Origin: Methylocystis sp. H62
Lineage (GTDB): Bacteria; Pseudomonadota; Alphaproteobacteria; Rhizobiales; Beijerinckiaceae
Reading direction: 5' to 3'
Length of the DNA: 64,000 bases
NCBI RefSeq assembly: GCF_015709515.1
Contig: NZ_JADNQZ010000049.1
Coordinates: 62,001 to 126,000, forward strand
The translations under genes were made by a program, and so were the position numbers. The notes below the pieces were generated by a model that made no database searches, was not told the DNA's origin, and saw only the letters and a list, made by a program, of their open reading frames with translations. Of this stretch, positions 4,917-58,035 are shown piece after piece; the first letter of the stretch is position 1, and each line of letters opens with the position of its first letter.

Positions 4917-4950
4917 GAAGGTTCGGTTCAGCTCGCCGACGCGGAACGGG

Positions 4951-5595
4951 TCATTTGATCTCGACATCATAGCTCGGCGCGCCGTCCGCGCCCTTGTAAG
5001 TGAAATGCCACCATTCGCGCGGAAAATTTTCAAAGCCGTGGCGGCGCATCAAGCTCACGAGCGCGTCGCGATGCGCCCGCGCCGTCTTCGAGGTTTTAGC
5101 TTTCGTCCATGAGCGCGTATCGAAAAAATCGAATGGCGTGCCGAAATTCCAGCCTTTGACGCCGATATCGACGGCCAATCCCGTCGAATGGGTGGAATGT
5201 TCGGCGATATAGCCCTCGGGAAACAGCGCGCTCTTCGCGAGGCGTGGATAATGTTCGGTCTTCGTCCGCTGGTCGGCGTTGCGCGACCAGTCGACGAAGG
5301 CCGAAACGGCGCGCAGCGGCCGGTAGCAATCGTAGACGACGAGCGAAATTTTGCGGGCGCGCGCATCCTTCTGCGCGGCGGCCAGCGCTTTGGCGGCCTC
5401 AGTGCGCAGCCAGCATTGCGGCGCGTCATAGCCGGGCACCGGCGCGCCAGTAAAATTATCGGCGCCGGCATAGCGCATCTCCTGAACGATAGTCGGCGCA
5501 ACGTCAGCAAGGCGCGTGAAGCCTGGCGGCGGCTCGCCGGCGTGCGCATGTGGCGCGGAAAGCGCCCCGATAAAAAGAAACATCACTCTGCGCAT
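4951..5595 (-). CDS. D-Ala-D-Ala dipeptidase, VanX/DdpX family (exported)
   Basis: 214 residues with a signal peptide (MRRVMFLFIGALSAPHAHA), predicting a periplasmic enzyme. Family zinc motifs are intact: SxHxxGxAxD with His136 and Asp143, and EWWH with Glu194 and His197; YDCYRP carries the conserved arginine (Arg92). VanX-type enzymes cleave D-alanyl-D-alanine; in Gram-negatives such as E. coli the homologue DdpX salvages D-Ala from cell-wall turnover. The export signal fits scavenging rather than vancomycin resistance, and there is no VanH or ligase nearby. Start chosen at 5595 because it yields the complete signal peptide. Confidence 0.88.
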   Translation of the reverse strand: MRRVMFLFIGALSAPHAHAGEPPPGFTRLADVAPTIVQEMRYAGADNFTGAPVPGYDAPQCWLRTEAAKALAAAQKDARARKISLVVYDCYRPLRAVSAFVDWSRNADQRTKTEHYPRLAKSALFPEGYIAEHSTHSTGLAVDIGVKGWNFGTPFDFFDTRSWTKAKTSKTARAHRDALVSLMRRHGFENFPREWWHFTYKGADGAPSYDVEIK

Positions 5596-5676
5596 GGCGG
5601 CTCCACGTGCGTTGGCGCAATTCGCTGCTCCCGAAGCCTGACTATAGGTCTTTCCAACGCAATCGGGAGGCCTTTG

Positions 5677-5970
5677 ATGTCCGAGAAACTCGCGCCTTTC
5701 GCCGGCCTCACGCTCGCCGCTCTCGCCGCCGCGATCGCATGGGGCGCGACGGCGCTCGCTGGCGATCGTTGCAAGGCGATGGGCGCCATGGGCGCTTCGA
5801 TCGCCATCCACGATCAGCGCAAAAATGTCATCGGCGCCATCGAAGACGGGAAGTCTATTATCGTGCAGCGCTATGGCGAGGACGATCACGGCAGGCCTTG
5901 GGCCTATGTGGCGAGCCCCGGCGGCAAACGGCTCGGCTGGCTCTATCGCGAATTCATCAGCTGCTCTTGA
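5677..5970 (+). CDS. Small exported SH3-like domain protein
   Basis: 97 residues: an N-terminal hydrophobic signal or anchor (residues 5-27, APFAGLTLAALAAAIAWGAT), followed by about 70 residues ending in GKRLGWLYREFISCS. The body, with DGKSIIVQRYGEDDHGRPWAYV, resembles bacterial SH3-type modules that bind cell-wall or protein ligands, but the match is weak. A ribosome site GGGAGG sits 6 bases before the ATG. It is divergent from the dipeptidase gene, so both probably use promoters in the 80 bases between them. No catalytic residues are evident; function unknown. Confidence 0.6.
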   Translation: MSEKLAPFAGLTLAALAAAIAWGATALAGDRCKAMGAMGASIAIHDQRKNVIGAIEDGKSIIVQRYGEDDHGRPWAYVASPGGKRLGWLYREFISCS

Positions 5971-6030
5971 TCGGGGCGTCATGAGGACTGACTATGTTTC
6001 GGAAGTTCGACGGCGCAGTTGGAGAGACGC

Positions 6031-6738
6031 ATGACAATTCGGATTGGCCGTCGGCAGTTTCTCGCCGCCTCCGCCGCCGCTGGCGCGGCGCTCAACGCCG
6101 CCGCGGCGAGCGCCGAGAACGACGCCGCTGTTTTGCGCAAGGGCGGGGTTAACACGCCGCTGCCGTTGCCATTTGATCCCGCGAAGATCAAAGGGCTTTC
6201 GGAAAAGCTCCTCATCTCACATTACGAGAACAACTATATCGGCGCGATCAAGCGCCTCAATGCGATCGGCCAGGAACTTGCGGCGCTCGATTTCGACAAG
6301 GCTCCGGGGTTTCAGATCAACGGCTTAAAGCGCGAAGAGCTTATCGCCACCAATTCCATGATCCTGCATGAAGTTTATTTCGCCGGGCTTGGCGACGGAA
6401 GCAAGCCGGGCGCCGATTTTGCGCAGGCGATCGATCGCGATTTCGGAGGATTCGCGCGTTGGCGGTCCGAATTCCTGGGCATGGGCAAGGCGCTCGGCGG
6501 CGGCTCCGGCTGGGTCATTCTTGCCTATGACAAGCATGGCAAGCGGCTCGTCAACTCTTGGGCGAATGACCACACGCAGAGCATGGCTGGCGGCGATCCC
6601 CTGCTGGTCCTCGATATGTTCGAGCACGCCTATCAGATGGATTTCGGCGCCAAGGCCGCCGACTACGTAAAAGTTGTGATGGAGGCGTTCAACTGGTCGA
6701 ACGCCGATCGCCTCTACGCCAAATATAGTAAGACGTAG
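6031..6738 (+). CDS. Tat-exported iron/manganese superoxide dismutase
   Basis: 235 residues. The start at 6031 follows a GGAGAG ribosome site and gives an N-terminus MTIRIGRRQFLAASAAAGAA, a twin-arginine signal, so the enzyme is expected to fold with its metal in the cytoplasm and act in the periplasm. The Fe/Mn SOD fold is clear, with metal ligands His64 (SHYENNY), His113 (ILHEVYF), Asp195 and His199 (DMFEHAYQMDFG). The usual NHxxxW-type second-sphere pattern is altered to NSMILHEVYFAG, so metal preference cannot be assigned. It would convert superoxide made outside the inner membrane to peroxide. Its convergent neighbour is pyrE. Confidence 0.92.
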   Translation: MTIRIGRRQFLAASAAAGAALNAAAASAENDAAVLRKGGVNTPLPLPFDPAKIKGLSEKLLISHYENNYIGAIKRLNAIGQELAALDFDKAPGFQINGLKREELIATNSMILHEVYFAGLGDGSKPGADFAQAIDRDFGGFARWRSEFLGMGKALGGGSGWVILAYDKHGKRLVNSWANDHTQSMAGGDPLLVLDMFEHAYQMDFGAKAADYVKVVMEAFNWSNADRLYAKYSKT

Positions 6739-6750
6739 CGACCGCGAAGA

Positions 6751-7434
6751 TCATCCCTTCGCCTTGGCGAGGCCGCCATGCGCCGCCGACCAGGCGACGG
6801 GATCGGCGATGAAGGCTTCAACTTCGTTGAGCGCGTCATCGGGGAAATATTTGTGCTCGCGGGCCACGGCGAGCACGTCTCGCCAGGTCGCGAGCGCATG
6901 CAGGCTGATGCCGAGCGCGGCCAGCTCCTCGCGCGCGCCAGCGAAGATATCATAGAAGAAGAACACGAAGACATGGTCGCAGCGCTGCCCCGAGTCGCGC
7001 AGCGCCTGCACGAAGTCCTTCTTCGAGCCGCCGTCGGTCGCCAAATCCTCGACCAGCAGGGCGCGGCCGCCCTCCATCACATCGCCTTCGATGCGGGCGT
7101 TGCGGCCGAAGCCCTTGGGCTTCTTGCGCACATATTGCATCGGCAGCATGAGGCTGTCGGCGATCCAGGCCGCGAAGGGAATGCCGGCGGTCTCGCCGCC
7201 CGCCACGACGTCGAGCGACTCATAGCCGATGTCGCGCTCGATCGTCCGCGTCGCGAATTCGACGAGGCGACGCCGCAGCCGCGGAAAGGCGATGATCTTG
7301 CGCATGTCGATATAGACCGGCGACGCCCAGCCGGCGGTGGTTATGAAAGGCTTATCGACATTCACGAGCACCGCTTGCACTTCGATCAGCGCCTTGGCGG
7401 TCTCTCGCGCGGCGGTTTGGCGGTCGTTCGACAT
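6751..7434 (-). CDS. pyrE: Orotate phosphoribosyltransferase
   Basis: 227 residues. It joins orotate to PRPP to make OMP in pyrimidine biosynthesis. The PRPP-binding loop [14 protein letters not shown] and the substrate loop region [16 protein letters not shown] are typical of the alphaproteobacterial PyrE group. The gene stands alone, followed upstream on the same strand by a glutathione transferase gene whose stop is 44 bases away. Its 3' end faces the superoxide dismutase gene. Confidence 0.95.
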
Positions 7435-7478
7435 GGATGCGGCGTGCCCTTCTTAGAAAAACGCCGCGCAGCCATAGC

Positions 7479-8183
7479 CTATTTCGCGCCGCCGCGCTCG
7501 CTGGTCTGACCGAAAAGTATTTCGCGCTCCAGCGCCGTAAAATCGAGACGCGACCGCTCATAGGGCGCGCCGGCCGCATAGGCGCGGATCACCGCCGGCC
7601 GGGAATGGATCGCCTCGAACCAGCGCTTGAGATGCGGGAAGTCGTGCAGATCCTGGCCCTGATCCTCATGCGGAACGATCCAGGGATAGCAGGCGATGTC
7701 GGCGATCGAATATTCGCCAGCGAGAAAAGGCGTCTTGGCGAGCTGACTGTCCATCACGCCGTAGAGCCGGCCTGTCTCAATACGGTAGCGCTCGATCGCG
7801 TAGGGAATTTTTGCGGGGGCGTATTTGGCGAAGTGGTGGTTTTGACCGGCCATCGGGCCAAGCCCGCCGACCTGCCAGAACAGCCACTGCAGCGTTCGCG
7901 CACGCGCATGGAGGTCTGTGGGAAGGAGCCGCCCGGTCTTCTCCGCGAGATAGACGAGAATCGCGCCCGATTCGAAGAGCGCGACCGGAGCGCCGCCATC
8001 CGCCGTCTCGCGGTCGATGATCGCCGGCATGCGATTGTTCGGAGAAATCGCGAGAAACTCGGGCTTGAATTGGTCCCCTTTGGTGATGTCGACAGGCTTG
8101 ATCCGATAAGCGAGTCCCGCTTCCTCGAGAAAAATCGTGACTTTGTGGCCGTTGGGGGTCGGCCAGTAATGAAGATCGATCAT
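7479..8183 (-). CDS. Glutathione S-transferase, YfcG/YghU (nu) type
   Basis: 234 residues. The N-terminal thioredoxin-like domain starts YWPTPNGHKVTIFLEE, with the TPNG motif that in E. coli YfcG/YghU provides the glutathione-contacting residues instead of Cys, Ser or Tyr. The cis-proline MPAII and glutathione-binding ALFESGAIL follow, and the helical C-terminal domain carries FLAGEYSIADIACYPWI. Enzymes of this group act as disulfide-bond reductases and on organic peroxides. The start at 8183 (MIDLHYW) is favoured over the 19-residue longer frame because it matches the family N-terminus. Confidence 0.92.
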   Translation of the reverse strand: MIDLHYWPTPNGHKVTIFLEEAGLAYRIKPVDITKGDQFKPEFLAISPNNRMPAIIDRETADGGAPVALFESGAILVYLAEKTGRLLPTDLHARARTLQWLFWQVGGLGPMAGQNHHFAKYAPAKIPYAIERYRIETGRLYGVMDSQLAKTPFLAGEYSIADIACYPWIVPHEDQGQDLHDFPHLKRWFEAIHSRPAVIRAYAAGAPYERSRLDFTALEREILFGQTSERGGAK

Positions 8184-8283
8184 GGACGCAGTCCGACGGG
8201 AGACCAGACTCTGTTGTAAGCCCTCGCGTCGCAAGATCAATCGCTCAGGTCATGCTAGGCTGGGGGCCCGGGAGTGGATCGCC

Positions 8284-8766
8284 ATGCTGATCAGATATTC
8301 GAAGATTTTGCTGACCGCTGCGCTCGGCGCGCTCATTCTGCTCGTCGCCATCAACAATGTCACGGACTACGACACGAATTACCAGTTCGTCAGCCATGTG
8401 ATGTCGATGGATCAGGTGCCGGCCGGCAGCCCGCTCGAGTGGCGCGCGGTCACGAGTGTGACGCTGCACCGGATGTTCTATGCATTTATTATCGCGATCG
8501 AATTCTCCGCCGCTGCGCTTGTTCTCGCCGGCGTGTGGCGGCTGTTGCTGAGGCGCAAGGCGGAGGCGGCGCGATTCAACGCCGCAAAGAATGTCGCGAT
8601 TGCGGGTCTTGCGCTCGCCGTTGGCCTCTACCTGTTCGGCTTCATGGCCGTCGGCGGGGAATGGTTCCAGATGTGGCGGTCCATGCCAGACGCCGAGCAA
8701 GCCGCGTTCCGGTTCATCGGCTGCGCGGCGCTGGTGATGCTGTTTCTCGGTCAGCGCGACGACTAA
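8284..8766 (+). CDS. DUF2165-family small integral membrane protein
   Basis: 160 residues with four hydrophobic segments (about residues 7-24, 64-85, 101-123 and 140-155). The motifs NVTDYDTNYQFVSHVMSMD, SPLEWRAV and GGEWFQMWRS in the loops match the uncharacterised DUF2165 family of inner-membrane proteins. No enzymatic residues are evident. It is transcribed divergently from the glutathione transferase gene, with about 100 bases between them holding both promoters. Confidence 0.75.
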   Translation: MLIRYSKILLTAALGALILLVAINNVTDYDTNYQFVSHVMSMDQVPAGSPLEWRAVTSVTLHRMFYAFIIAIEFSAAALVLAGVWRLLLRRKAEAARFNAAKNVAIAGLALAVGLYLFGFMAVGGEWFQMWRSMPDAEQAAFRFIGCAALVMLFLGQRDD

Positions 8767-8770
8767 CGCG

Positions 8771-8971
8771 TCACAGCCGCTTCAGCATATTGTATCCGAG
8801 CAGACCGCCAAGTCCCGCCCCGACGACTGCGATGAGCGGGCCGCCGATCGCGACGCCGGTCAGACCGCCGAGAACGGCGCCTACGCCGCCAAAAAGATAT
8901 TTGTTCTTTTTAACGGTGGGGTTTTCGTCGGTCAGTTCGTTCTCAACGATGGGATTTTTGTCATCCGCCAT
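8771..8971 (-). CDS. Small glycine-zipper membrane protein
   Basis: 66 residues: an acidic hydrophilic N-terminal third, then a glycine-rich hydrophobic stretch (GGVGAVLGGLTGVAIGGPLIAVVGAGLGGLLGY) with the GxxxG spacing of glycine-zipper membrane helices, probably two helices in a hairpin. There is no cleavable signal. The stop is 4 bases from the convergent DUF2165 gene stop. Function unknown; such proteins are often envelope-stress or pore-like components, but nothing here proves that. Confidence 0.65.
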   Translation of the reverse strand: MADDKNPIVENELTDENPTVKKNKYLFGGVGAVLGGLTGVAIGGPLIAVVGAGLGGLLGYNMLKRL

Positions 8972-9116
8972 TGCAAAGTCCTCGTGAAAGAGCCGCAGTG
9001 GCGAATTAAGCAGAGCGGCGCTGAAATCAAGAGCGGGTCCGAAGAACAGTCAGGAAGTAGCGATTCGGTCACAGCTACGGATCGGCGGCGGCGACCCGGA
9101 TGCATTGACGTTGCGA

Positions 9117-46658: not shown

Positions 46659-47722
46659 CGAGAACAGTGACCGACGCGCCTTGCGCCTTGCTCGACCGGC
46701 TGCCTGATGGATTTCTCGACTGCCCCGCCAATCGCCTGAAGGACATCCTTCCTCGACCGACGCTGTTCGACCTTCCGGGCCGCGACCCGCAACCGGTGTT
46801 CGTGTCTACGCTGCTGCATGGGAATGAGACGAGCGGGCTCGCCGCCGTGCAGGAGACTTTGCGCCGTCACGCCGCGCGCGGGCTCAATCGGTCGCTCATC
46901 CTGTTCATCGGCAATGTCGACGCCGCGGCGGCGAATGTGCGCACGCTACCCAGTCAGCGCGACTTCAACCGGGTGTGGCGCGGCACGGCCTTTCCCGATG
47001 ATCCGCTCGCGCATATGGCGCGCTGGATTTACGACTACGTCGAGAAGCGCCGAGCCTTCGCCGCCGTCGACATCCACAACAACACCGGTTTCAATCCTCA
47101 CTACAGCTGCATCACCAGGCTTGAGCCGAAATACGTCGCGCTCGCGCAGCTTTTCTCCCGCATCGTCGTGCATTTTCAGCGCCCGCGCGGCACCAGCGCC
47201 GCGGCCTTCGCGGAACTATGTCCGGCGATCACGGTCGAATGCGGCAAGTCGGGCGCCGATGCCGGCGTGGCGCATGTCGTCGAATTGCTCGACGCCTGCC
47301 TCTCGATCGCAGAGCTTCCCGATCACGCGCCGGCCCCGCACGACATCGAATTGCTGCGCACCTGCGCCATCGTGAAGCCGCCCGCCGGCGCAAGCTTTTC
47401 CTTCGACGGAACGCCGGCGGACTTTGTCTTCCGCCCCGATATCGACCATCTGAATTTCAGCGAATTGGGCGCTGGCGCCTCTTTCGGCGCGTTGGGCGAC
47501 GAAGACGCGCGCCTGGAAGTCCTCTCCGGCGAGGGGTTCGACACGCAACCGCTCAACTATTTCGATTATGCCGGCGGTGAAATCAGGCTCGCGCGCCCCG
47601 CCATTCCGGCCATGCTGACAGTCGATCGCCGCGCGGTGCAGCAGGATTGTCTATGCTATCTGATGCACCGCATCGGCATGGACGGCTTGGGATATAGCCG
47701 CACTGACGCGAACGCGCATTAG
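46655..47722 (+). CDS. M14-family metallohydrolase (AstE/aspartoacylase-like)
   Basis: 355 residues, no signal peptide. Zinc ligands are His55 and Glu58 in LLHGNETSG and His141 in VDIHNNTGFNPHYSC; Glu195 in TVECGKSG is the likely catalytic base. The order and RDFNRVWRG (substrate-binding arginines) match the succinylglutamate desuccinylase/aspartoacylase branch of M14, which cleaves N-acyl amino acids. The start codon overlaps the ligase stop (ATGA), so both act in the same process. The natural substrate is unknown. Confidence 0.85.
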   Translation: MTRTVTDAPCALLDRLPDGFLDCPANRLKDILPRPTLFDLPGRDPQPVFVSTLLHGNETSGLAAVQETLRRHAARGLNRSLILFIGNVDAAAANVRTLPSQRDFNRVWRGTAFPDDPLAHMARWIYDYVEKRRAFAAVDIHNNTGFNPHYSCITRLEPKYVALAQLFSRIVVHFQRPRGTSAAAFAELCPAITVECGKSGADAGVAHVVELLDACLSIAELPDHAPAPHDIELLRTCAIVKPPAGASFSFDGTPADFVFRPDIDHLNFSELGAGASFGALGDEDARLEVLSGEGFDTQPLNYFDYAGGEIRLARPAIPAMLTVDRRAVQQDCLCYLMHRIGMDGLGYSRTDANAH

Positions 47723-48075
47723 GGTTTCTCCGGCCGCACGTCCTCGATGACATAGAGGCCTTTCGCGTCGCGACTGATCGTGAATTTGATCTTCATGCCT
47801 TTCGACAGGCTGGAGAGATCAACGTTCGGCGCCACGCGAAACGCCATTGTCATAGGCGACATTTCCAGCGGTCCCGTGATCGGCCCATGGGTGATCATGA
47901 TCCCTCGCTCGTCCGCGTCGACCGCTCTGACGACGCCCTCGCCTTGCCCGGTCGTCTTCTCCGCCTGTTCCGTCACCTGGGCGACAGTGTAGCGCGGCGC
48001 GCCTTGGACCGCCGCGCCGCCAATCCCGATAGAGATGGCGGCGCATGCCGCGACGCGTGCAAATCGCGTGTTCAT
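47719..48075 (-). CDS. CusF-like periplasmic copper-binding protein
   Basis: 118 residues with a signal peptide (MNTRFARVAACAAISIGIGGAAVQG). The mature OB-like domain contains VRAVDADERGIMITHGPITG followed by MSPMTMAFRV: the His and two Met typical of the CusF Cu(I)/Ag(I) site. The tryptophan that caps copper in E. coli CusF (in GWPAMTMRF) is absent. It lies 30 bases downstream of csp1 on the same strand, a fitting partner for copper handling. Confidence 0.85.
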   Translation of the reverse strand: MNTRFARVAACAAISIGIGGAAVQGAPRYTVAQVTEQAEKTTGQGEGVVRAVDADERGIMITHGPITGPLEMSPMTMAFRVAPNVDLSSLSKGMKIKFTISRDAKGLYVIEDVRPEKP

Positions 48076-48105
48076 CGAAGTTCCCGATCTTGCTGTTGAG
48101 GTCGG

Positions 48106-48549
48106 TTAGACTTTACGGCACTCGTCGGCGCATTTCTGGCACGCTTTGCCGCAGGCCACGCATTCGGCGATCTTCGGAAACTTGTCGCACTGCTTTTTGC
48201 AGTCTTCGCAAATCATGGCCACCGTCTTCGCCAGCGGACCGACATGCGACGAGTTGAGCGCTGCAAGCGACGCCAGCGCGTTGCATGCGGCGACAAGCTG
48301 CAGCGAGGCGTCCGCACATTCGGCCATGCTCGTGTCTTTCATCGCAAACATGCCAAGACAGTGCCGAAGGCAGTCATTGCCGGTGGAGACACATTCGATG
48401 CTCGCATGTTCCAGGTTTTTGTAGAGCGGCGGATGCATATCCTCCATTTTGGCCGCGCTGTCCTGTTGGCCGGTTGCCTGAGCAAACGCTTGGGAGGCGG
48501 ACACGACGGCGGCGGCGGTTCCGACTGCGATGAATTCGCGACGTTCCAT
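48106..48549 (-). CDS. csp1: Copper storage protein Csp1-type, Tat-exported
   Basis: 147 residues. The N-terminus MERREFIAVGTAAAVVSASQ is a twin-arginine signal. The mature four-helix bundle contains 13 cysteines, the number found in Csp1 of Methylosinus trichosporium, spaced along helices as in IECVSTGNDCLRHCL, ECVACGKACQKCADECRK. Csp1 tetramers store many Cu(I) ions for the particulate methane monooxygenase. The ATG at 48549 follows GGAG. Downstream is a CusF-like gene. This is the best indicator of a methanotroph. Confidence 0.95.
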   Translation of the reverse strand: MERREFIAVGTAAAVVSASQAFAQATGQQDSAAKMEDMHPPLYKNLEHASIECVSTGNDCLRHCLGMFAMKDTSMAECADASLQLVAACNALASLAALNSSHVGPLAKTVAMICEDCKKQCDKFPKIAECVACGKACQKCADECRKV

Positions 48550-48693
48550 GATCTTTCTCCAGTGAGTTCCTGACGCCAAATGCCGAAGGAACTTTTCCGC
48601 CGGCATGGCTGGCTCATGTCATCTTTTCGTAACCCGCTGCGGTGCGGTCAGCAAGCAACTCGGGCTCAAGGCCCATGCGCGTCGATGTTTTTC

Positions 48694-50904: not shown

Positions 50905-51594
50905 GTGTCCCTATTTGACGGGATTCCTTTCTTTGTTGGTCTCGACCCGACGCGCGGCGAGCAGCTGGCGCGCCAATGCGTGCGCAGGCGCTACGCCGAG
51001 CATGAGCTGGTCCTCGATTTCGACGATCCTTCGACCGATGTGTATTTCATCGTCAGCGGCGACGTTCGGGTGCTGATACGCACCGCCGCGGGCAAGGAAA
51101 TGATTTTCGGGGACTTCGGACCGGGCAAATTCTTCGGCGAGATGGCGGCGGTCGATGGGGCCAAGCGCTCCGCCAATGTGACGGCGCTCACCAACGCGGA
51201 ACTTTTGCTGGTGCCGCCAGTGGTCTTCAAGGAGATCCTGTTCGGCGAGCCGGAGATTTGCGAGCGGCTGTTGCGTCTGCTGACGGCGCGGGTGCGGGAA
51301 CTGAATACGCGCCTGTTCGAGCGCTCGGTGCTCGACCTCAAGCATCGGCTCTATTCCGAATTGTTGCGCATGTCGGCGCCGCGCAAGGGGTCGACGGGAC
51401 AATCGATCGTATCGCCGCCGCCGTTTCAGCATGATCTCGCCGCCCGTATCGGTTGTCGGCGCGAACAGGTCAGCCGCGAACTCTCGGCCATGATCGACGA
51501 AGGACTTGCCGAAAAAATTCGCGGCGGTCTCGTGCTGTTGCGCCCGTCGGTCTTGGAGAAGCGGGTTCAAGAGGCGCTCAACGAAGCCGAATGA
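50905..51594 (+). CDS. Crp/Fnr-family transcriptional regulator
   Basis: 229 residues, GTG start. The N-terminal cyclic-nucleotide-binding barrel includes VYFIVSGDVRVLIRT and the phosphate-binding-cassette-like segment FGPGKFFGEMAAVDGAKRSANVTAL, in which GEMA and the Arg-Ser pair resemble cAMP-binding cassettes. The C-terminal HTH is HDLAARIGCRREQVSRELSAMIDEGLAEKI. No Fnr cysteines are present. This makes a cAMP or cGMP effector plausible; a cyclase gene lies 3.5 kb downstream. Confidence 0.9.
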   Translation: MSLFDGIPFFVGLDPTRGEQLARQCVRRRYAEHELVLDFDDPSTDVYFIVSGDVRVLIRTAAGKEMIFGDFGPGKFFGEMAAVDGAKRSANVTALTNAELLLVPPVVFKEILFGEPEICERLLRLLTARVRELNTRLFERSVLDLKHRLYSELLRMSAPRKGSTGQSIVSPPPFQHDLAARIGCRREQVSRELSAMIDEGLAEKIRGGLVLLRPSVLEKRVQEALNEAE

Positions 51595-51703
51595 CCCATG
51601 TGCGGTCTCGCACAAACAGATGAGGAACAGGGCGCTACCGTCGCTATGCTGCCAACAAGAGGCAAAGGACCCGTGGCAGAGCAAGCGACTGGGAGAACCC
51701 GAA

Positions 51704-52111
51704 ATGATTCCCGAATTGACGCCGATCGAGCGTTGCGCCGAAGTGGCGGGTCTGCGCGGCCATGAACTCATCCTGGGCGTGAGCCCCAGCGACAAGCACC
51801 ATCGCATGCTGGCGCGATACCGCCGGGCCGTCTCGCTCGACGCCGCGCGCGGGCGAGTCGTCGCCGACATCCGCAACGCGGTTGAGATCGGCGCGTCGCG
51901 CCGCGCCGCCGACCTGCTGATCGTGCTGCGCTGGCTCCTCGCGCCGGGCGCGTCTTGCGACGATTCACGCGCCATCGCGCGTCCGCGTCGCCGCGTGGTC
52001 TCGGCGCGCTGGCGCAGGGGCGTCATTCCCTCGTCGTCGTCGGTCGCCGAGCAGTCGTCGACTGAAAGCGGCGAAGTGGTCTCACTCTTCGATGGCGGGC
52101 TCCGGCGTTAG
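51704..52111 (+). CDS. Hypothetical protein, 135 residues
   Basis: MIPELTPIERCAEVAGLRGHELILGVSPSDKHHRMLARYRRAV... a mostly helical N-terminal half, then an Arg-rich tail and a Ser-rich end (PSSSSVAEQSSTESGEV). No family recognised; probably a small regulator or adaptor. It follows the Crp/Fnr gene on the same strand after 109 bases. Confidence 0.5.
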   Translation: MIPELTPIERCAEVAGLRGHELILGVSPSDKHHRMLARYRRAVSLDAARGRVVADIRNAVEIGASRRAADLLIVLRWLLAPGASCDDSRAIARPRRRVVSARWRRGVIPSSSSVAEQSSTESGEVVSLFDGGLRR

Positions 52112-52376
52112 CCGCGCGTCGCGCCTGTGCTTTCAAGGCAACACCCGAGAATTTGTTGCATTCGCCGTTTGTGCAAGGAGAATGGGCAGAAAAGTCCGTA
52201 AACCGTTGCTGCATAGGATTAATTCGTAGCAGACACATTGCGCCGTCGTGTCGTTCGCATCGTCGCATCGTCCGGCGCTAGCTTGCTACTCCAGGCGACA
52301 TGAGTCAGCTTCCGGTTCAGCTGACGGTCCGGGCTTCAATCGCCGTTTTTCGATTTTTTACGGGGGCTTGCCATTT

Positions 52377-53735
52377 ATGTTCGCATATAAAGCGGCGCCG
52401 AGGCTTTTGGGCGCACTGTTTGCCGCATTCGCAGTTTTCAGTCCGGCTCTGGCGCAGGAGGATCCGCGCGCCGAACAGGAGCGCCTCGCAGCCTATATTC
52501 AGCATAATCCAACCGACTATGACGCGACCTATCGCTACGTCCTGCTGTCGACGGAGCTACGCGACTATGAGGCGGGAATCGGCGCGCTTGAACGCATGCT
52601 GATGTTCAACCCGAACTTGTCGCGCGCCCGAAAGGAGCTTGGCTTCCTTTATGCGCGGCTCGGCGCCTATGAAATCTCGGCGCAGCATTTGCGCACCGCG
52701 CTCGCCGAAGGCGGCCTCGATGCGGTTCAGGTGGCTCAGGTCGAAGCTCAGCTGCCCGACATCGAGAAGCGCACACAAGCCAACCGGCTTTATCTGCGGA
52801 TGCACGTCGGCCTGCGGGCGCAATCGAACGCGAATTTCTTTCCGACCAATAATCTTTTCCAGGTCGGCGGCGTCGGCGTTGCGTCGGCCGCCTCGCGCAA
52901 GGGCGACATCAACAGCTTCCAATTGGTGCAGGCCGCCCATGATCTGGATTTTCAGAACGGGCGCGGCGACCAGCTCGAGACGCGCGTGACGGGCTACGCC
53001 ACCGAGCAGTTTCGTCTGCCGCAATACAGCGTCGCGCTGTTCGCCGGCTCGGTCGGACCACGCATCCATATCGCGCCCGATCTTTATCCGGGCCTCTCCA
53101 TCAAGCCCTACGTGACCGGCGCGGTGGCGCTGCTCGGCGGCAGCAATTATCTGAACGCTGGCGGCGCAGGCATGAGTTTCGGCGCGGAACTTGGTCGCGA
53201 CCTGTGGTTTGAGCCGGGCGCCGAATGGCGGGCGATCTGGGTCGATCCCTCGCCGGGATTCCTCGGCTATACCGGTTTTTCGCCCTATTCGACGGTATCG
53301 ACGTTGGCGACTGGCGACGTCGTCACCGGCTACCTGAGCAGCTCCTACAGACTGACAAACGACCTGAGGCTTGAAGGTCGCGTCGCCTATACGCGGGCGT
53401 GGGCGGGCAATCCGCAGCAATCTTCCGATCAGGTGGACGTTCAGGCGATGCTGCGGCTCGAGGTCGACCCGCCATTTCCAATTATTCCGCGCCGATGGAC
53501 CCTCGCGCCTTATGGCCGCTTTACGCATCTTGCCTTCGACGCCGCCAATCCGGTGATCAATCCCTTCGTCGCGCGTCGAGACACCGTCTGGATCGGCGGC
53601 CTGATGGTGGACTTGCCGATTACCCCGTATTTCGGTTTCGCCGGCAACGTCGAGTATGCGCGCAACGATTCGAATCTGCCGAATTTCAAGACTGACAACG
53701 TGTCCGTCAGTTTCGGGCCAACGGCAAAGTTCTGA
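52377..53735 (+). CDS. TPR plus outer-membrane beta-barrel protein (Slam-like)
   Basis: 452 residues. Signal peptide MFAYKAAPRLLGALFAAFAV...LAQ, then TPR-like helices (about 30-150: AGIGALERMLMFNPNLSRARKELGFLYARLGAYEISAQHLRTAL), then a C-terminal barrel of amphipathic strands ending SVSFGPTAKF with a terminal Phe as in outer-membrane proteins. This layout resembles surface lipoprotein assembly modulators (Slam/DUF560). Downstream after 12 bases is a secreted FecR-domain protein, a possible client. Confidence 0.72.
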   Translation: MFAYKAAPRLLGALFAAFAVFSPALAQEDPRAEQERLAAYIQHNPTDYDATYRYVLLSTELRDYEAGIGALERMLMFNPNLSRARKELGFLYARLGAYEISAQHLRTALAEGGLDAVQVAQVEAQLPDIEKRTQANRLYLRMHVGLRAQSNANFFPTNNLFQVGGVGVASAASRKGDINSFQLVQAAHDLDFQNGRGDQLETRVTGYATEQFRLPQYSVALFAGSVGPRIHIAPDLYPGLSIKPYVTGAVALLGGSNYLNAGGAGMSFGAELGRDLWFEPGAEWRAIWVDPSPGFLGYTGFSPYSTVSTLATGDVVTGYLSSSYRLTNDLRLEGRVAYTRAWAGNPQQSSDQVDVQAMLRLEVDPPFPIIPRRWTLAPYGRFTHLAFDAANPVINPFVARRDTVWIGGLMVDLPITPYFGFAGNVEYARNDSNLPNFKTDNVSVSFGPTAKF

Positions 53736-53747
53736 CGGAGACGATAA

Positions 53748-54989
53748 ATGAAAAAGTTCTCCGCGGCCGCCACAACCGCTCTCGCGCTCGTCGCAGGCCC
53801 CGCGCTCGCAGATAACGTCGGGAACGTCGGCGCGGTCAATCAGAGTGCGCACGGCACGCCGCCGGGCGCCGCGAAGCGCTCGCTCTCGGTTGGTCTTGGC
53901 GTGCAACGGCGCGAACGCATCGAGACGAGTCCGTACGGCAGCGCCCAGATCGTCTTTAACGACACATCGACGATGACCGTCGGACGCAACAGCGCCGTCA
54001 CCGTTGACGATTTTGTCTATTCACAAGGCGGCGGCGGTCAGCAGGGCGTGTCGATGGCGAAGGGCGTCATGCGCTTCGTCGGCGGCGGCGTCAGCCACGA
54101 AGGCGGCACACGGCTGCGGACGCCGACGGCGTCCATCGGCGTGCGCGGCGGGACGGCGCTGGTTCGGGTTGGCGGCTCATGCGGCACGCTCGTCGTGCAT
54201 CAATATGGTTTCATCGACGTCGGCGGCCAGGCGCTCACGCGCCCGGGTTATGGGGTCTGCGCGCCGAGCGGCGGGCCGGTGTCGGAGCCTTTCCTCGTGC
54301 CGCCTGAGACGATCGCGCAAATCGTCGCGGCATTGGAGAGCGGTAAAGGACAGCGTGGCGGCGCCAAGCGCGAGCCGACGAACGAAGAGGCGAACCTTGC
54401 CCTCGGCAATGATCGTCCGCCGGACGTCGTCAGTCCGCCGGGCCTCGACGCGCTGGGTCCGGTTTGGTTCGGCAATGCGATCGTGCAGAGCCGCGCCAAC
54501 GTCGACAATCAGCCTGCGCCGCTGCCGACGCCAGCGCGCCAGGGCGGAAATGACGGCCACCACGACGATCATGATCACGGCGGACATGGCGGCCATGATC
54601 ACGGTGGTCATGAAGGCGGCGAGGGCGGCCACGGCGGCCACGGCGAGGGCGGTCACGGCGGACATGGCGAGGGCGGCCATGGCGGACATGGCGAGGGCGG
54701 CCACGGCGGACATGGCGAAGGTGGTCACGGCGGCGAAGGCGGCCACGGCGGCGGTTATGGAGGCGGCCATGGCGAAGGCGGCCATGGCGGCGGCTATGAA
54801 GGCGGCGAGGGCGGCCAGTACGGTGGTGGCGAGGGCGGTCACGGCGGCGAAGGCGGCGGTGGAGGCCTCTTCGGGGGCGGCGGCTCGGGCCATGGAAGCG
54901 GCGGGGGCCAAGGGAGTCACGGAAGCAGCGGTCATGGGAGCGGCGGTCACGGAGGCGGGCCCGTTGCGATTGACGGTCCGGGCGACTAG
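53748..54989 (+). CDS. Secreted FecR-domain protein with long His/Gly-rich tail
   Basis: 413 residues. Signal peptide MKKFSAAATTALALVAGPALA, a FecR-like domain (about 45-150: RRERIETSPYGSAQIVFND, MTVGRNSAVTVDDFVY, VSHEGGTRLRTPTASIGVRGGTA) and a linker with a CGT/GVC cysteine pair. The last 145 residues or so are almost only Gly, His and Glu, in GGHGGHGEG repeats starting DGHHDDHDHGG. The tail should bind transition metals such as copper, nickel or zinc. FecR domains normally sense at the envelope. Between the barrel and the cyclase genes, so probably in one operon. Confidence 0.82.
   Translation: MKKFSAAATTALALVAGPALADNVGNVGAVNQSAHGTPPGAAKRSLSVGLGVQRRERIETSPYGSAQIVFNDTSTMTVGRNSAVTVDDFVYSQGGGGQQGVSMAKGVMRFVGGGVSHEGGTRLRTPTASIGVRGGTALVRVGGSCGTLVVHQYGFIDVGGQALTRPGYGVCAPSGGPVSEPFLVPPETIAQIVAALESGKGQRGGAKREPTNEEANLALGNDRPPDVVSPPGLDALGPVWFGNAIVQSRANVDNQPAPLPTPARQGGNDGHHDDHDHGGHGGHDHGGHEGGEGGHGGHGEGGHGGHGEGGHGGHGEGGHGGHGEGGHGGEGGHGGGYGGGHGEGGHGGGYEGGEGGQYGGGEGGHGGEGGGGGLFGGGGSGHGSGGGQGSHGSSGHGSGGHGGGPVAIDGPGD
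54570..54970 (+). repeat. Tandem repeats encoding the His/Gly tail
   Basis: Imperfect tandem units of about 24-27 bases, GGCGGACATGGCGAGGGCGG and close variants, spell GGHGGHGEG. Four near-identical copies lie at 54630-54740, then degenerate ones. The unit count may vary between strains by slippage. Confidence 0.75.
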
Positions 54990-55053
54990 TTCTGCGGCGT
55001 CGCCAGCATCGCCAATCCCCCCGGCGGCGGGGTGACCGTCATGCGAGGTGGAG

Positions 55054-57270
55054 ATGTTGAAGCGGCGTCGCGCCTACCTTCTCGCGATCGTCGCCGCTGC
55101 GGTTCTCATTTTTCCCTGGGGAGTTATTCAACCCCGGGCGCTCGACGACCTTCGCAACTTTGTCTTCGACACGTTTCAGCGTTTGGCTCCTCGCGCCTAT
55201 GATCCCGAGACGCCGACGCGGGTCGTCGGCGTCGACGAAAAAAGTCTCAGCGCCTATGGGCAATGGCCTTGGCCGCGCGCCCGGCTCGCCGAACTTCTTG
55301 ACCGATTGCGGGAACTCGGCGCGGCGTCCATCGCCTTCGACTTCATCTTCGCGGAGGCGGATCGCGCCGGAGCGTCCCAGCTCATCGAGGCGATTCCCGA
55401 CCCACGCGCCCGCGCCGAGGTGGCGAAGCTCATCGCAAAAGCGCCGAGCGGCGATCAAGTCCTGGCGCAGGCGCTCTCGAAGGCGCCCGCAACGCTTGGA
55501 GTCACGCTGACCGACGCCGTTTCAGCGCCGCTGCCGGCGAAGTCGGGAGTGGTCACCGCCGGCGACGATCCCGCACCCTTTCTCGCCGCGTTCGCCGGCG
55601 CGGTCGGCCCGGAGCGAAAGCTTGCGGAAGCGGCGCGAGGGCTTGGCGCGACAAACTGGCTGCCGGATCACGACCAGATCGTTCGTCGGGTGCCGCTGGT
55701 GACGCGCGCCGGAGACGTTCTCATGCCCTCCCTGGCGCTCGAAGCCCTGCGCATCGCCCAGGGCGAGCCGGCCATCGTCATTCGGTCTTCAAACGCCAGC
55801 GGACAAACCGCTTTCGGCAAGCAGACGGGCGTCAACGCGATTAAGGTCGGCGCCTTCGAAATTGCGACCGGCCCCAACGCGGAGGTCCGGCCACGCTATT
55901 CGCACAGCGACGCCGTGCGGGATATTTCAGCCAAGGACGTGCTCGAGGGCCACGTTGCGCGCGACGAGATCGAGGGGCGCATCATCTTCGTCGGCGCGTT
56001 GGCGACGGGTCTCGGCGACGTCCGCGCAACGCCTTTGGAGCCGGTCGTTCCCGGAGTCGACGTGCATGCGCAGATCGTCGAATCGATCGCCTCGGGCTCG
56101 CTGCTCGCGCGCCCGGACTGGGCGCACGGACTGGAGTTCGTCGTCGCCGCATTCTCGTTTTTGCTGATCATGAGCCTGCTCTTCGTCGCGCCGCCGCTCG
56201 TCTCGGCGGCGGCGGCGCCGCTCGCCGTCGCGGGGCTGTTCGCCGGCGCCTTTTATCTGTTCGATCGCCGCGGCCTGCTGCTCGATCCCTCTTATCCGAG
56301 TCTCGCGATCCTTGGCGGGTATCTCTTTGGCGCAGTGACGCTCTGGCGGTCCGAAACGTCCGCGCGTCGCCATGTGCGTCAGGCCTTCGGTAAGTTCGTC
56401 TCGCCTGCCGTCGTCGATCGCCTCGCCGAACATCCGGAACGGCTGGTGCTCGGCGGCGAGACGCGCGAATTGACCGTGCTGTTTTCCGATCTGCGCAATT
56501 TCTCGGGGATTTCGGAAGGCATGAGCGCACGCGAACTCACGCAGTTCATGAATGAATATTTGACCCCGATGACCGACGCCATCCTCGAAGCGGAGGGCAC
56601 GATCGACAAATATATGGGCGACGCGGTGCTCGCCTTCTGGAACGCGCCGCTCGATATCGACGACCATCCGCGCAAGGCCGTTCAGGCCGCCCTGACGATG
56701 CGCGAGGCTCTCGTCAGCCTCAACAGAAAGCGCGCCGCGGCCGCTGCGTCGTCGGGCAATGATGCGCAGCCTGCTGCGATGGGGCTTGGCCTCAATCTCG
56801 GCCCTTGCAGCGTCGGCAACATGGGATCCATCCGCCGCTTCGACTATTCGATTCTTGGCGACACGGTGAATCTCGCGTCGCGGCTCGAAGGGGCGAGCAA
56901 GGCCTTTCAGACGGACATTGTCGCCTCTGGCGTGGTGCGCGACGCCGCGCCCGACTTCGCCTGGCTTGACCTTGGGCGTGTCCGCGTCGTCGGAAAGAGC
57001 GAACCGACGAGGGTTTTCGCGCTCGTCGGCGACAGCGGGGTGGTCGTCTCGGACTCGTATGTGCGCTGGCGCATGTCGCATGACCTCATGCGCCAGGAAT
57101 ATGACTCCGGCCGATTCGAAGCCGCCGCCGAGGGGGCCTCGGCGTTGGCGCGATCGGTTCCCGAGCCCTGGCCCGCGCTCTATGTCGTGTTGGAGCAGCG
57201 GTATCGAGGTCTCGCCAGGGAGGGGTCGCAGGATAACTGGTCTTCGGTATGGAATCTTTCGAGCAAGTGA
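55054..57270 (+). CDS. CHASE2-domain adenylate/guanylate cyclase
   Basis: 738 residues. An N-terminal membrane segment, a large extracytoplasmic CHASE2 sensor (about 30-340; RVVGVDEKSLSAYGQWPWPRARLAELLDRL, AASIAFDFIF), three closely spaced membrane helices (about 355-430) and a C-terminal class III cyclase domain. Metal aspartates are in LFSDLRNFSG (near residue 477) and YMGDAVLAFWNAP (near 522); substrate elements are in SILGDTVNLASRLEG. It should make cAMP (or cGMP) in response to a periplasmic signal, perhaps from the FecR-type neighbour. ATG at 55054 has a GAGGTGG site. Confidence 0.93.
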   Translation: MLKRRRAYLLAIVAAAVLIFPWGVIQPRALDDLRNFVFDTFQRLAPRAYDPETPTRVVGVDEKSLSAYGQWPWPRARLAELLDRLRELGAASIAFDFIFAEADRAGASQLIEAIPDPRARAEVAKLIAKAPSGDQVLAQALSKAPATLGVTLTDAVSAPLPAKSGVVTAGDDPAPFLAAFAGAVGPERKLAEAARGLGATNWLPDHDQIVRRVPLVTRAGDVLMPSLALEALRIAQGEPAIVIRSSNASGQTAFGKQTGVNAIKVGAFEIATGPNAEVRPRYSHSDAVRDISAKDVLEGHVARDEIEGRIIFVGALATGLGDVRATPLEPVVPGVDVHAQIVESIASGSLLARPDWAHGLEFVVAAFSFLLIMSLLFVAPPLVSAAAAPLAVAGLFAGAFYLFDRRGLLLDPSYPSLAILGGYLFGAVTLWRSETSARRHVRQAFGKFVSPAVVDRLAEHPERLVLGGETRELTVLFSDLRNFSGISEGMSARELTQFMNEYLTPMTDAILEAEGTIDKYMGDAVLAFWNAPLDIDDHPRKAVQAALTMREALVSLNRKRAAAAASSGNDAQPAAMGLGLNLGPCSVGNMGSIRRFDYSILGDTVNLASRLEGASKAFQTDIVASGVVRDAAPDFAWLDLGRVRVVGKSEPTRVFALVGDSGVVVSDSYVRWRMSHDLMRQEYDSGRFEAAAEGASALARSVPEPWPALYVVLEQRYRGLAREGSQDNWSSVWNLSSK

Positions 57271-57348
57271 CGTCTTCGTCCGAGCGCGACTGCTGTCCAG
57301 CCGCATGGCCGCACGTATTATGGGTTCTCTTATGATCGCTACTCGCGC

Positions 57349-58035
57349 ATGATCTCAAAACCGGTGCAGAATTATTGGGCCCTGATCGCCGGGCGTCACG
57401 ACGCGGATGCTTTTTCGGTTATCGACGCCGCCTATCGCGAACCGCAACGCAGGTATCATGATTGGGGCCATATCGTCGATTTGCTGACGAAGCTCGACTG
57501 CTCGAAGGCGCTCGCCGTACGGCCAGATCTGATCGCCGCCGCGATCTTTTGGCATGACGCTGTCTATGAGACACGCGACGACGACGGTCTGCTTCGTCCC
57601 GACGCCGAAAATGTTCGCGCCAGCGCAACGCTCTTCGAACGTCACTCGAAATTCGACGAAACAGATGCGCAGGCCATCCATGACCTGATCATGGCGACAG
57701 CGAACCACCTCAACGCGCGCGCGACGGTTGAGCATTACCCCGGTTTTTCGCGCGATCTGGACCTCTTCCTCGACCTCGATCTTTCCTCGCTCGGCGCGTC
57801 CTGGTCCGAGTTCGAGCAGAATCTGGCGCGGCTTCGTTTCGAATACGCCTGGGTGCCCGAGCCGCTCTTTTGCCTTGGGCGGCTCCAGATGATCGACACA
57901 TTCGCCGCGCATGGAGACGCGCTTTACCGCCTCGACGAGACGCGCAAGCTCTGGTGCGCGCGGGCGCATCAAAATCTCGCGCGCGCGCAGGAGCAATTGC
58001 GCCGGCAGGTGGCGCGGCTCGCCTCGTCGGCCTAG
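57349..58035 (+). CDS. HD-domain metal-dependent phosphohydrolase
   Basis: 228 residues. YHDWGHIVDLL and FWHDAVYE contain the HD residues, and the sequence matches the COG4339 predicted metal-dependent phosphohydrolases (N-terminal QNYWALIAGRH, C-terminal HEDA-type segments replaced by QAIHDLIMATANHL). The natural substrate is unknown. Being next to a cyclase, a cyclic-nucleotide phosphodiesterase role is an attractive but unproved inference. 78 bases after the cyclase. Confidence 0.82.
   Translation: MISKPVQNYWALIAGRHDADAFSVIDAAYREPQRRYHDWGHIVDLLTKLDCSKALAVRPDLIAAAIFWHDAVYETRDDDGLLRPDAENVRASATLFERHSKFDETDAQAIHDLIMATANHLNARATVEHYPGFSRDLDLFLDLDLSSLGASWSEFEQNLARLRFEYAWVPEPLFCLGRLQMIDTFAAHGDALYRLDETRKLWCARAHQNLARAQEQLRRQVARLASSA

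Follow-up and report, generated by a model that had tools for sequence, protein, structure and literature searches.

The window analysed here comprises 64,000 nucleotides of the genome of the methane-consuming bacterium Methylocystis sp. H62 (4.54 Mb; contig NZ_JADNQZ010000049.1, positions 62,001–126,000), and the element in question is a block of six genes at positions 50905–58035, all located on the plus strand. In order, they encode a Crp/Fnr regulator, a small protein, a predicted outer-membrane protein with tetratricopeptide repeats (TPR) and a β-barrel, a FecR-domain protein, a CHASE2 receptor with a cyclase domain, and a protein with an HD-type residue pattern (Table 1). Families were assigned by profile scans against Pfam and NCBIfam at E-values of up to 0.05. 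An earlier note on this DNA had described five of these genes as a metal-sensing cyclic-nucleotide pathway of a form not known before, involving a Slam-like barrel and an HD phosphohydrolase. Its five genes were found again, and the small gene had been overlooked; the Crp/Fnr regulator, the TPR/barrel protein, the secreted-type FecR protein with a His/Gly tail and the CHASE2 cyclase on a common strand were confirmed by Pfam matches, an AlphaFold model and sequence composition. Using the starts chosen here, the intergenic gaps are 109, 265, 12, 58 and 78 bases, and the barrel, FecR, cyclase and HD-pattern genes could form one predicted operon.

Table 1. Genes and domains of the six-gene block (positions refer to the window; aa, amino acids)
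Feature	Positions	Strand	Description
Crp/Fnr regulator	50905..51594	+	229 aa, GTG start; cNMP_binding 71.9 bits, HTH_Crp_2 39.5
Small gene, family unrecognised	51704..52111	+	135 aa, between the Crp and barrel genes
Outer-membrane TPR/barrel protein (predicted)	52377..53735	+	signal peptide; TPR residues 30–133; 14-strand barrel 136–451; last residue F
FecR-domain protein	53748..54989	+	413 aa, signal peptide-like start; begins 12 bp after the barrel gene
FecR domain	53916..54176	+	residues 57–143; PF04773, 40.8 bits
His/Gly-rich tail	54513..54986	+	last 158 residues, 25 His and 85 Gly; lineage-specific, variable
CHASE2 receptor with class III adenylyl/guanylyl cyclase domain	55048..57270	+	740 aa
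CHASE2 periplasmic sensor region	55117..56145	+	residues 24–366; PF05226, 186.8 bits
Cyclase domain (Guanylate_cyc)	56461..57009	+	residues 472–654; PF00211, 60.7 bits
HD-pattern protein	57349..58035	+	228 aa; H...HD...D pattern

By its domains, the product of the fifth gene qualifies as a CHASE2 class III nucleotidyl cyclase receptor. Among 20 relatives, the residues D481, K521, D525, N608 and R612 are invariant and D605 is nearly so; we take them to be the metal, base-recognition and transition-state residues of the class III family. The Lys/Asp base pocket suggests ATP as the substrate and cyclic AMP (cAMP) as the predicted product. The Crp/Fnr regulator aligns to Crp proteins of solved structure, among them Clr (7pza) at an E-value of 6e-16. 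Its FGE and KRS motifs line up with FGE and ERS of 4ev0, presumably the phosphate-binding Glu and Arg-Ser of the cNMP domain, and the protein is likely to be a cAMP reader. In comparison with three relatives, its ratio of nonsynonymous to synonymous substitution rates (dN/dS) was 0.06–0.09, the lowest of the six genes.

The TPR/barrel protein matched TPR_9 with 39.5 bits, and its AlphaFold model, built with 16 sequences, reached a mean predicted local distance difference test value (pLDDT) of 84.2, featuring TPR helices followed by 14 long strands. The more probable start of its gene is near 52377 rather than at 52248, because relatives align from about the former position. In the FecR protein, FecR was the sole Pfam match, and no C-terminal eight-strand cargo barrel was detected. 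The small protein of 135 aa had no match in Pfam or NCBIfam, and its gene showed the highest dN/dS of the six (about 0.3 in three pairs). For the HD-pattern protein, the residues H37, H41, H69-D70, H120, D136 and D144 are invariant across 10 aligned relatives, a pattern compatible with an HD-type metal site. Neither Pfam nor NCBIfam gave a match at E-values of up to 0.05, the single sequence found nothing in the PDB, and a profile retrieved only GldL (E 0.17), which is not credible; the structure model (pLDDT 49.5) was too low to use. The proposed HD phosphohydrolase thus holds as regards the residue pattern and lacks a family match, leaving the protein as a candidate metal-dependent phosphohydrolase without a recognised phosphodiesterase family.

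To evaluate the conservation of the block, 29 loci centred on barrel genes were compared in 39 genomes of the genus. In 24 of these loci, the six genes are all present with order and strand preserved, and the locus with a disrupted barrel frame (L107, see below) is counted among them; four of the remaining loci are cut by contig ends and one (L106) differs. The small gene was found in 27 of the 29 loci, being absent only from one of the cut loci (L096) and from L106. At the genome level, the barrel gene was present in 29 and CHASE2 in 30 of the 39 genomes: 28 carry both, two carry CHASE2 only (G075 and G081), one carries the barrel only (G091, its contig ending next to the barrel gene), and eight carry neither, four of these being less than 90% complete. 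Since the gene order is conserved and pairwise dN/dS against the three relatives amounts to 0.06–0.31 for the six genes, the block is more than a chance arrangement. Scattering of the genes in relatives had been named beforehand as the observation that would speak against a common function; within the genus the genes stay together, and the view that they belong to each other, with one pathway as the best reading of barrel, FecR, cyclase and regulator, gains from this conserved order. The HD-pattern gene accompanies the cyclase within the genus and also at two loci of other genera (L033 and L037).

Two genus loci showed peculiarities of their own. At L107 (genome G079), the barrel frame is split into three open reading frames (ORFs), and the cyclase and HD genes lie in one 983-aa frame; these broken and fused frames are likely assembly errors, and possibly represent real decay or fusion. 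In genome G060 (L106 and L109), two FecR genes follow the barrel gene, with no cyclase next to them; the CHASE2 cyclase of this genome is at another place and has two more FecR genes on its flanks.

Beyond the genus, the linkage was evaluated in an even draw of 96 genomes from the class, which contained 105 CHASE2 loci in 44 genomes. A FecR gene was located within 5 kb of 38 of these loci, compared to an expectation of 0.86 computed from FecR numbers and genome sizes. In total, 26 of the 38 pairs are on the same strand, and pairs were present in 27 of the 44 CHASE2-bearing genomes. Of 21 loci made up of 20 from the wider family and the window, 12 carry FecR close to the CHASE2 cyclase. Barrel relatives were retrieved with profile A3, constructed from 15 proteins taken beside CHASE2 cyclases and the window barrel. 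This profile gave 23 strong matches in the class sample, 18 of them with FecR within 1 kb (expected: 0.034) and 12 with CHASE2 within 8 kb (expected: 0.23). FecR lies directly downstream on the same strand in 17 of the 23; this proportion is not blind, since A3 itself contains two or more of the matches (among them the window and G144). Furthermore, a barrel match was present in 10 of 37 loci picked for FecR proximity, a number that does not represent a rate.

A further set comprised 80 CHASE2-cyclase loci from named genomes, 47 of which are flanked by over 5 kb on either side. FecR was detected in 31 of these 47 well-flanked loci, and FecR together with a barrel-family match in 15 (11 of the 15 at barrel length), including a metagenome-assembled genome of the Elusimicrobia. 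As a separate observation, locus L050 contains, divergent from a CHASE2 cyclase, a gene for a 420-aa protein whose sequence includes a Crp-like cyclic-nucleotide-binding region, with a FecR gene next to it.

The arrangement of TPR helices and a 14-strand barrel is the layout of Slam and type XI secretion barrels. The window barrel and Slam systems share this layout and a partner gene next door; they differ in that the window barrel has no match to SlipAM (PF04575) at an E-value of 0.05 and the window FecR protein lacks a cargo barrel domain. Intermediates connect the two: an Elusimicrobia member of the barrel family scored 34.1 against the SlipAM cut-off of 22, four of the 23 strong relatives in the class sample exceeded this cut-off, and 10 of the 12 SlipAM rows in that sample overlapped a match to the barrel-family profile. 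At an E-value of 0.01, SlipAM was matched by two of 16 barrel family members. A control profile stricter than A3 (A2; 11 genus sequences and one other) reached seven of 14 chosen genomes and matched the SlipAM-positive protein of G174 over its whole length (E 1.9e-69), and missed the SlipAM-positive genomes G126, G129, G122 and G166. FecR was found within 5 kb of none of five middle-scoring SlipAM-type relatives. Because the SlipAM link runs only through relatives and A2 reaches G174 but not these four SlipAM-positive genomes, the window barrel is, as judged from its sequence, Slam-like, i.e., a distant relative through intermediates and not a Slam member.

The FecR partners of barrel relatives provide a second connection. 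Six of seven long partners end in TbpB/FHBP matches, all of them below the cut-off, as opposed to none of eight short partners. A profile of eight long-FecR ends retrieved 29 PDB sequences at E-values of up to 1 (best E 3e-6). Of these, 27, including the best 26, are NHBA, fHbp, lactoferrin- or transferrin-binding protein B, or lipoproteins typed as such; the other two are pilus biosynthesis proteins (E 0.17). NHBA, fHbp and TbpB-type families are known Slam cargo. The designation of the barrel as Slam-like is accordingly upheld by the intermediates and the cargo-type end domain of relatives' partners and is limited by the missing SlipAM match of the window protein itself.

Taken as a whole, the block somewhat more probably than otherwise represents a cell-envelope-to-cAMP signalling pathway, a split form of the Sinorhizobium NsrA/CyaK/Clr arrangement. 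In such a pathway, the TPR/barrel protein would reside in the outer membrane and form a receptor or display complex with the FecR protein, whose FecR domain would remain in the periplasm. The FecR domain would relay a change at the surface, arising from a ligand or from how the FecR protein is assembled, to CHASE2, presumably by contact, and the CHASE2 domain would then alter the cAMP output of the inner-membrane cyclase. The adjacent Crp/Fnr regulator would read this cAMP, and the HD-pattern protein may lower its level.

The closest known counterpart was found on S. meliloti pSymB. The gene overlapping the cyaK start by one base encodes a protein of 1190 aa with FecR at residues 66–160 (57.6 bits) and TPR at 417–587, resembling only the FecR part of the window proteins (BLAST E 1e-6). 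We take this gene, directly preceding cyaK, to be nsrA. NsrA has been described as an outer-membrane receptor with a barrel at 600–1200; both NsrA and CyaK are reported to be required for cAMP to respond to a protein from outside, the response being lost without NsrA (PMC7529298, in excerpt); the length and barrel position of the 1190-aa protein are compatible with this description. In addition, clr (SMc02175), cyaD1 (SMc02176) and the FecR gene SMc02177 are grouped together (PMC5498481, in excerpt). The Sinorhizobium system, with CyaK, CyaD1, CyaD2 and Clr, and the window have in common CHASE2 cyclases, a Crp-type reader and a FecR and TPR receptor linked to a cyclase; however, the receptor is one chain of 1190 aa there and two proteins here, and the ligand there originates from the plant. 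A similar pair of fused receptor and cyclase also exists inside the window's genus: at L113 (positions 4684–9000, genome G065), a 1227-aa FecR-TPR protein is encoded directly upstream of a second CHASE2 cyclase.

In the FecI/FecR/FecA system, the FecR domain acts between the outer and the inner membrane. In contrast, the window FecR protein starts with a signal peptide-like stretch and has no cytoplasmic sigma-binding part, and no extracytoplasmic function (ECF) sigma factor or TonB-dependent receptor was present among the ORFs and families scanned in the block and its neighbours. In Campylobacterota, genes for a CHASE2 adenylyl cyclase, a phosphodiesterase, FecR and TPR proteins are clustered and were proposed to form a single pathway (PMC9239204, in excerpt). 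By description, this cluster resembles the window in combining CHASE2 cyclase, FecR and TPR, with the HD protein as a candidate for the fourth kind; it belongs to another phylum, and its phosphodiesterase is described as cAMP-hydrolysing. In Burkholderia and Pseudomonas, operons of the BiofilmReg type carry a secreted FecR-domain protein gene adjoining a CHASE2 histidine kinase receptor (PMC5192318, in excerpt); they differ from the window in their histidine kinase and response regulator output and in a FecR protein with LysM, and a barrel gene is not mentioned in that excerpt. Finally, the Magnetospirillum MtxA operon comprises a gene for a secreted protein followed by a CHASE2 cyclase gene, an order alike, by description, to that in the window, with MtxA described as lacking known homologues (PMC4439547, in excerpt). 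The general plan is therefore already known from other bacteria, and the claim that no such pathway had been described is not supported as regards its kind, the Campylobacterota cluster and the Sinorhizobium NsrA/CyaK/Clr system preceding it in the excerpted literature.

Several observations weigh against the proposed envelope-to-cAMP pathway. Gene content, gene order, conservation, the FecR–CHASE2 and barrel–FecR linkages, the domain architectures and the cyclase catalytic residues are direct observations; for the window proteins we infer the localisation, the FecR–CHASE2 contact, the signalling direction, the cAMP product, the Crp reader and the HD role. The barrel match near the end of the S. 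meliloti 1190-aa protein is weak (16.1 compared to the Pfam cut-off of 27), and a BLAST comparison of this protein with the window barrel showed no similarity (best E 0.03). Crp was found near the cyclase in only 8 of the 47 well-flanked loci, and the small and HD genes in only one of them (L152, Methylocystis-type). As barrel, FecR and CHASE2 occur together widely and the Crp, small and HD genes are rare in the well-flanked loci, the former constitute the old core and the latter are later or local additions. Furthermore, one locus of another genus (L033) and one of the same genus (L110) contain the Crp, small, cyclase and HD genes without an adjoining barrel and FecR, which points to these four genes as a separable sub-module, and in G060 the barrel and FecR are apart from the CHASE2 gene, so that the two halves are separable. 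Lastly, SMc02177 was reported to be dispensable for signal perception and to be activated by Clr (PMC5498481, in excerpt).

These two properties of SMc02177 also favour an explanation that we regard as rather unlikely, namely that the barrel and FecR proteins are outputs, with the cyclase sensing through CHASE2 alone and Crp switching on a surface or secretion module. The resemblance of the barrel relatives to a secretion barrel and the cargo-type domain at the end of long FecR partners would suit such a module, and CHASE2 loci without a nearby FecR are common (67 of 105). However, the joining of FecR to CHASE2 genes spans many families within the class and involves partners of several kinds, a picture more in keeping with an input or partner role, and loss of NsrA is reported to abolish the response (PMC7529298, in excerpt).

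That the Crp, small, cyclase and HD genes on the one hand and the barrel and FecR genes on the other are two separate neighbours, adjacent by history, appears improbable. L033 and L110, holding the first set without the second, and G060, with its barrel and two FecR genes apart from CHASE2, are in line with this assumption, but barrel–FecR pairs lie close to CHASE2 in unrelated families far above the expectation given above. Moreover, the HD, barrel, FecR and cyclase genes are consecutive at L037 in another genus, and genes for a TPR protein, a FecR protein with a weak TbpB match and a cyclase follow one another on a Paracoccus plasmid.

The proposed metal-sensing function was evaluated by means of the His/Gly tail of the FecR protein. 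Against the three relatives, dN/dS of the tail was 0.30–0.97, and the FecR core is under selection. At least eight His residues were present in the tails of 14 of the 29 genus FecR genes; the other 15 have 0–4 His, their ends being short, Gly-rich without His, or Pro-rich. At L088, the barrel protein is 96% identical to that of the window, yet the FecR tail has only 3 His. In the other loci compared, 1 of 93 FecR-profile matches contains at least eight His in its last 120 residues. No conserved metal-binding region was thus found in the FecR protein, and metal sensing is not supported, because the His tail is absent or short in 15 of 29 genus genes and in 92 of 93 other matches.

Two observations concern similar or neighbouring sequences. 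On the opposite strand (47719–48606, minus strand), some 2.9 kb upstream of Crp, a CusF-like copper protein gene (PF11604, 71.4 bits) lies beside a gene for a Cys-rich 166-aa protein; the latter had no Pfam match and looks like a copper-storage (Csp) protein of the four-helix type. L152 retains both genes, and a search of the L032 and L110 stretches did not find them; the remaining stretches from the genus were too short to reach that position. In another genus (L035, 9527–10930, minus strand), a secreted-looking His/Gly-rich protein of 467 aa is encoded two genes from a CHASE2 cyclase; its low-complexity sequence is similar to the tail, and no FecR domain was found in it. A cassette sensing metal through the tail, which its His content (25 of 158 residues) and the nearby copper pair kept in L152 might suggest, is very improbable given how few FecR proteins carry such a tail and the absence of the copper pair from two of the stretches compared.

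Returning to the envelope-to-cAMP pathway, the FecR architectures found elsewhere allow a wider and more tentative proposal. In 80 of 83 FecR-profile matches, the FecR domain begins no later than residue 200, and an N-proximal FecR domain could remain periplasmic while the rest of the protein is outside. It is conceivable, if doubtful, that FecR serves as a general periplasmic read-out handle on surface-exported proteins that is read by CHASE2 receptors. The cell would thereby sense whether a surface protein has been exported, anchored or bound, and would report this via cAMP or another output. Under this proposal, the barrel family of the window would represent a branch devoted to FecR within the type XI secretion superfamily. 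The export architectures could include FecR cargo with a Slam-like barrel, FecR-TPR-barrel chains and type I-style giants; a fused FecR-TPR chain with a TonB-receptor barrel was found at L139. In addition, giant proteins of approximately 1200–2300 aa with an N-proximal FecR were observed near CHASE2 cyclases at L116, L124, L198, L203, L211–L213, L219 and L220. The two giants scanned (L116 and L124) contain cadherin/Ig, VWA or RTX parts.

Compared to the known systems, what looks new in the Methylocystis block is the receptor split in two, its barrel half being Slam/type XI-like and the long FecR partners of relatives having cargo-barrel-like ends. Literature searches turned up no publication that connects FecR and CHASE2 with Slam/type XI barrels, and the words FecR, CHASE and cyclase are absent from the main text of two type XI papers (PMC12282271 and PMC8406197). 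For the CHASE2 sensor domain, a general ligand has long been lacking. The class-wide and statistically strong link between CHASE2, FecR and the Slam-like barrel indicates that the FecR domain may be what CHASE2 reads, and would provide type XI secretion with a new candidate kind of cargo and a signalling role beside it.

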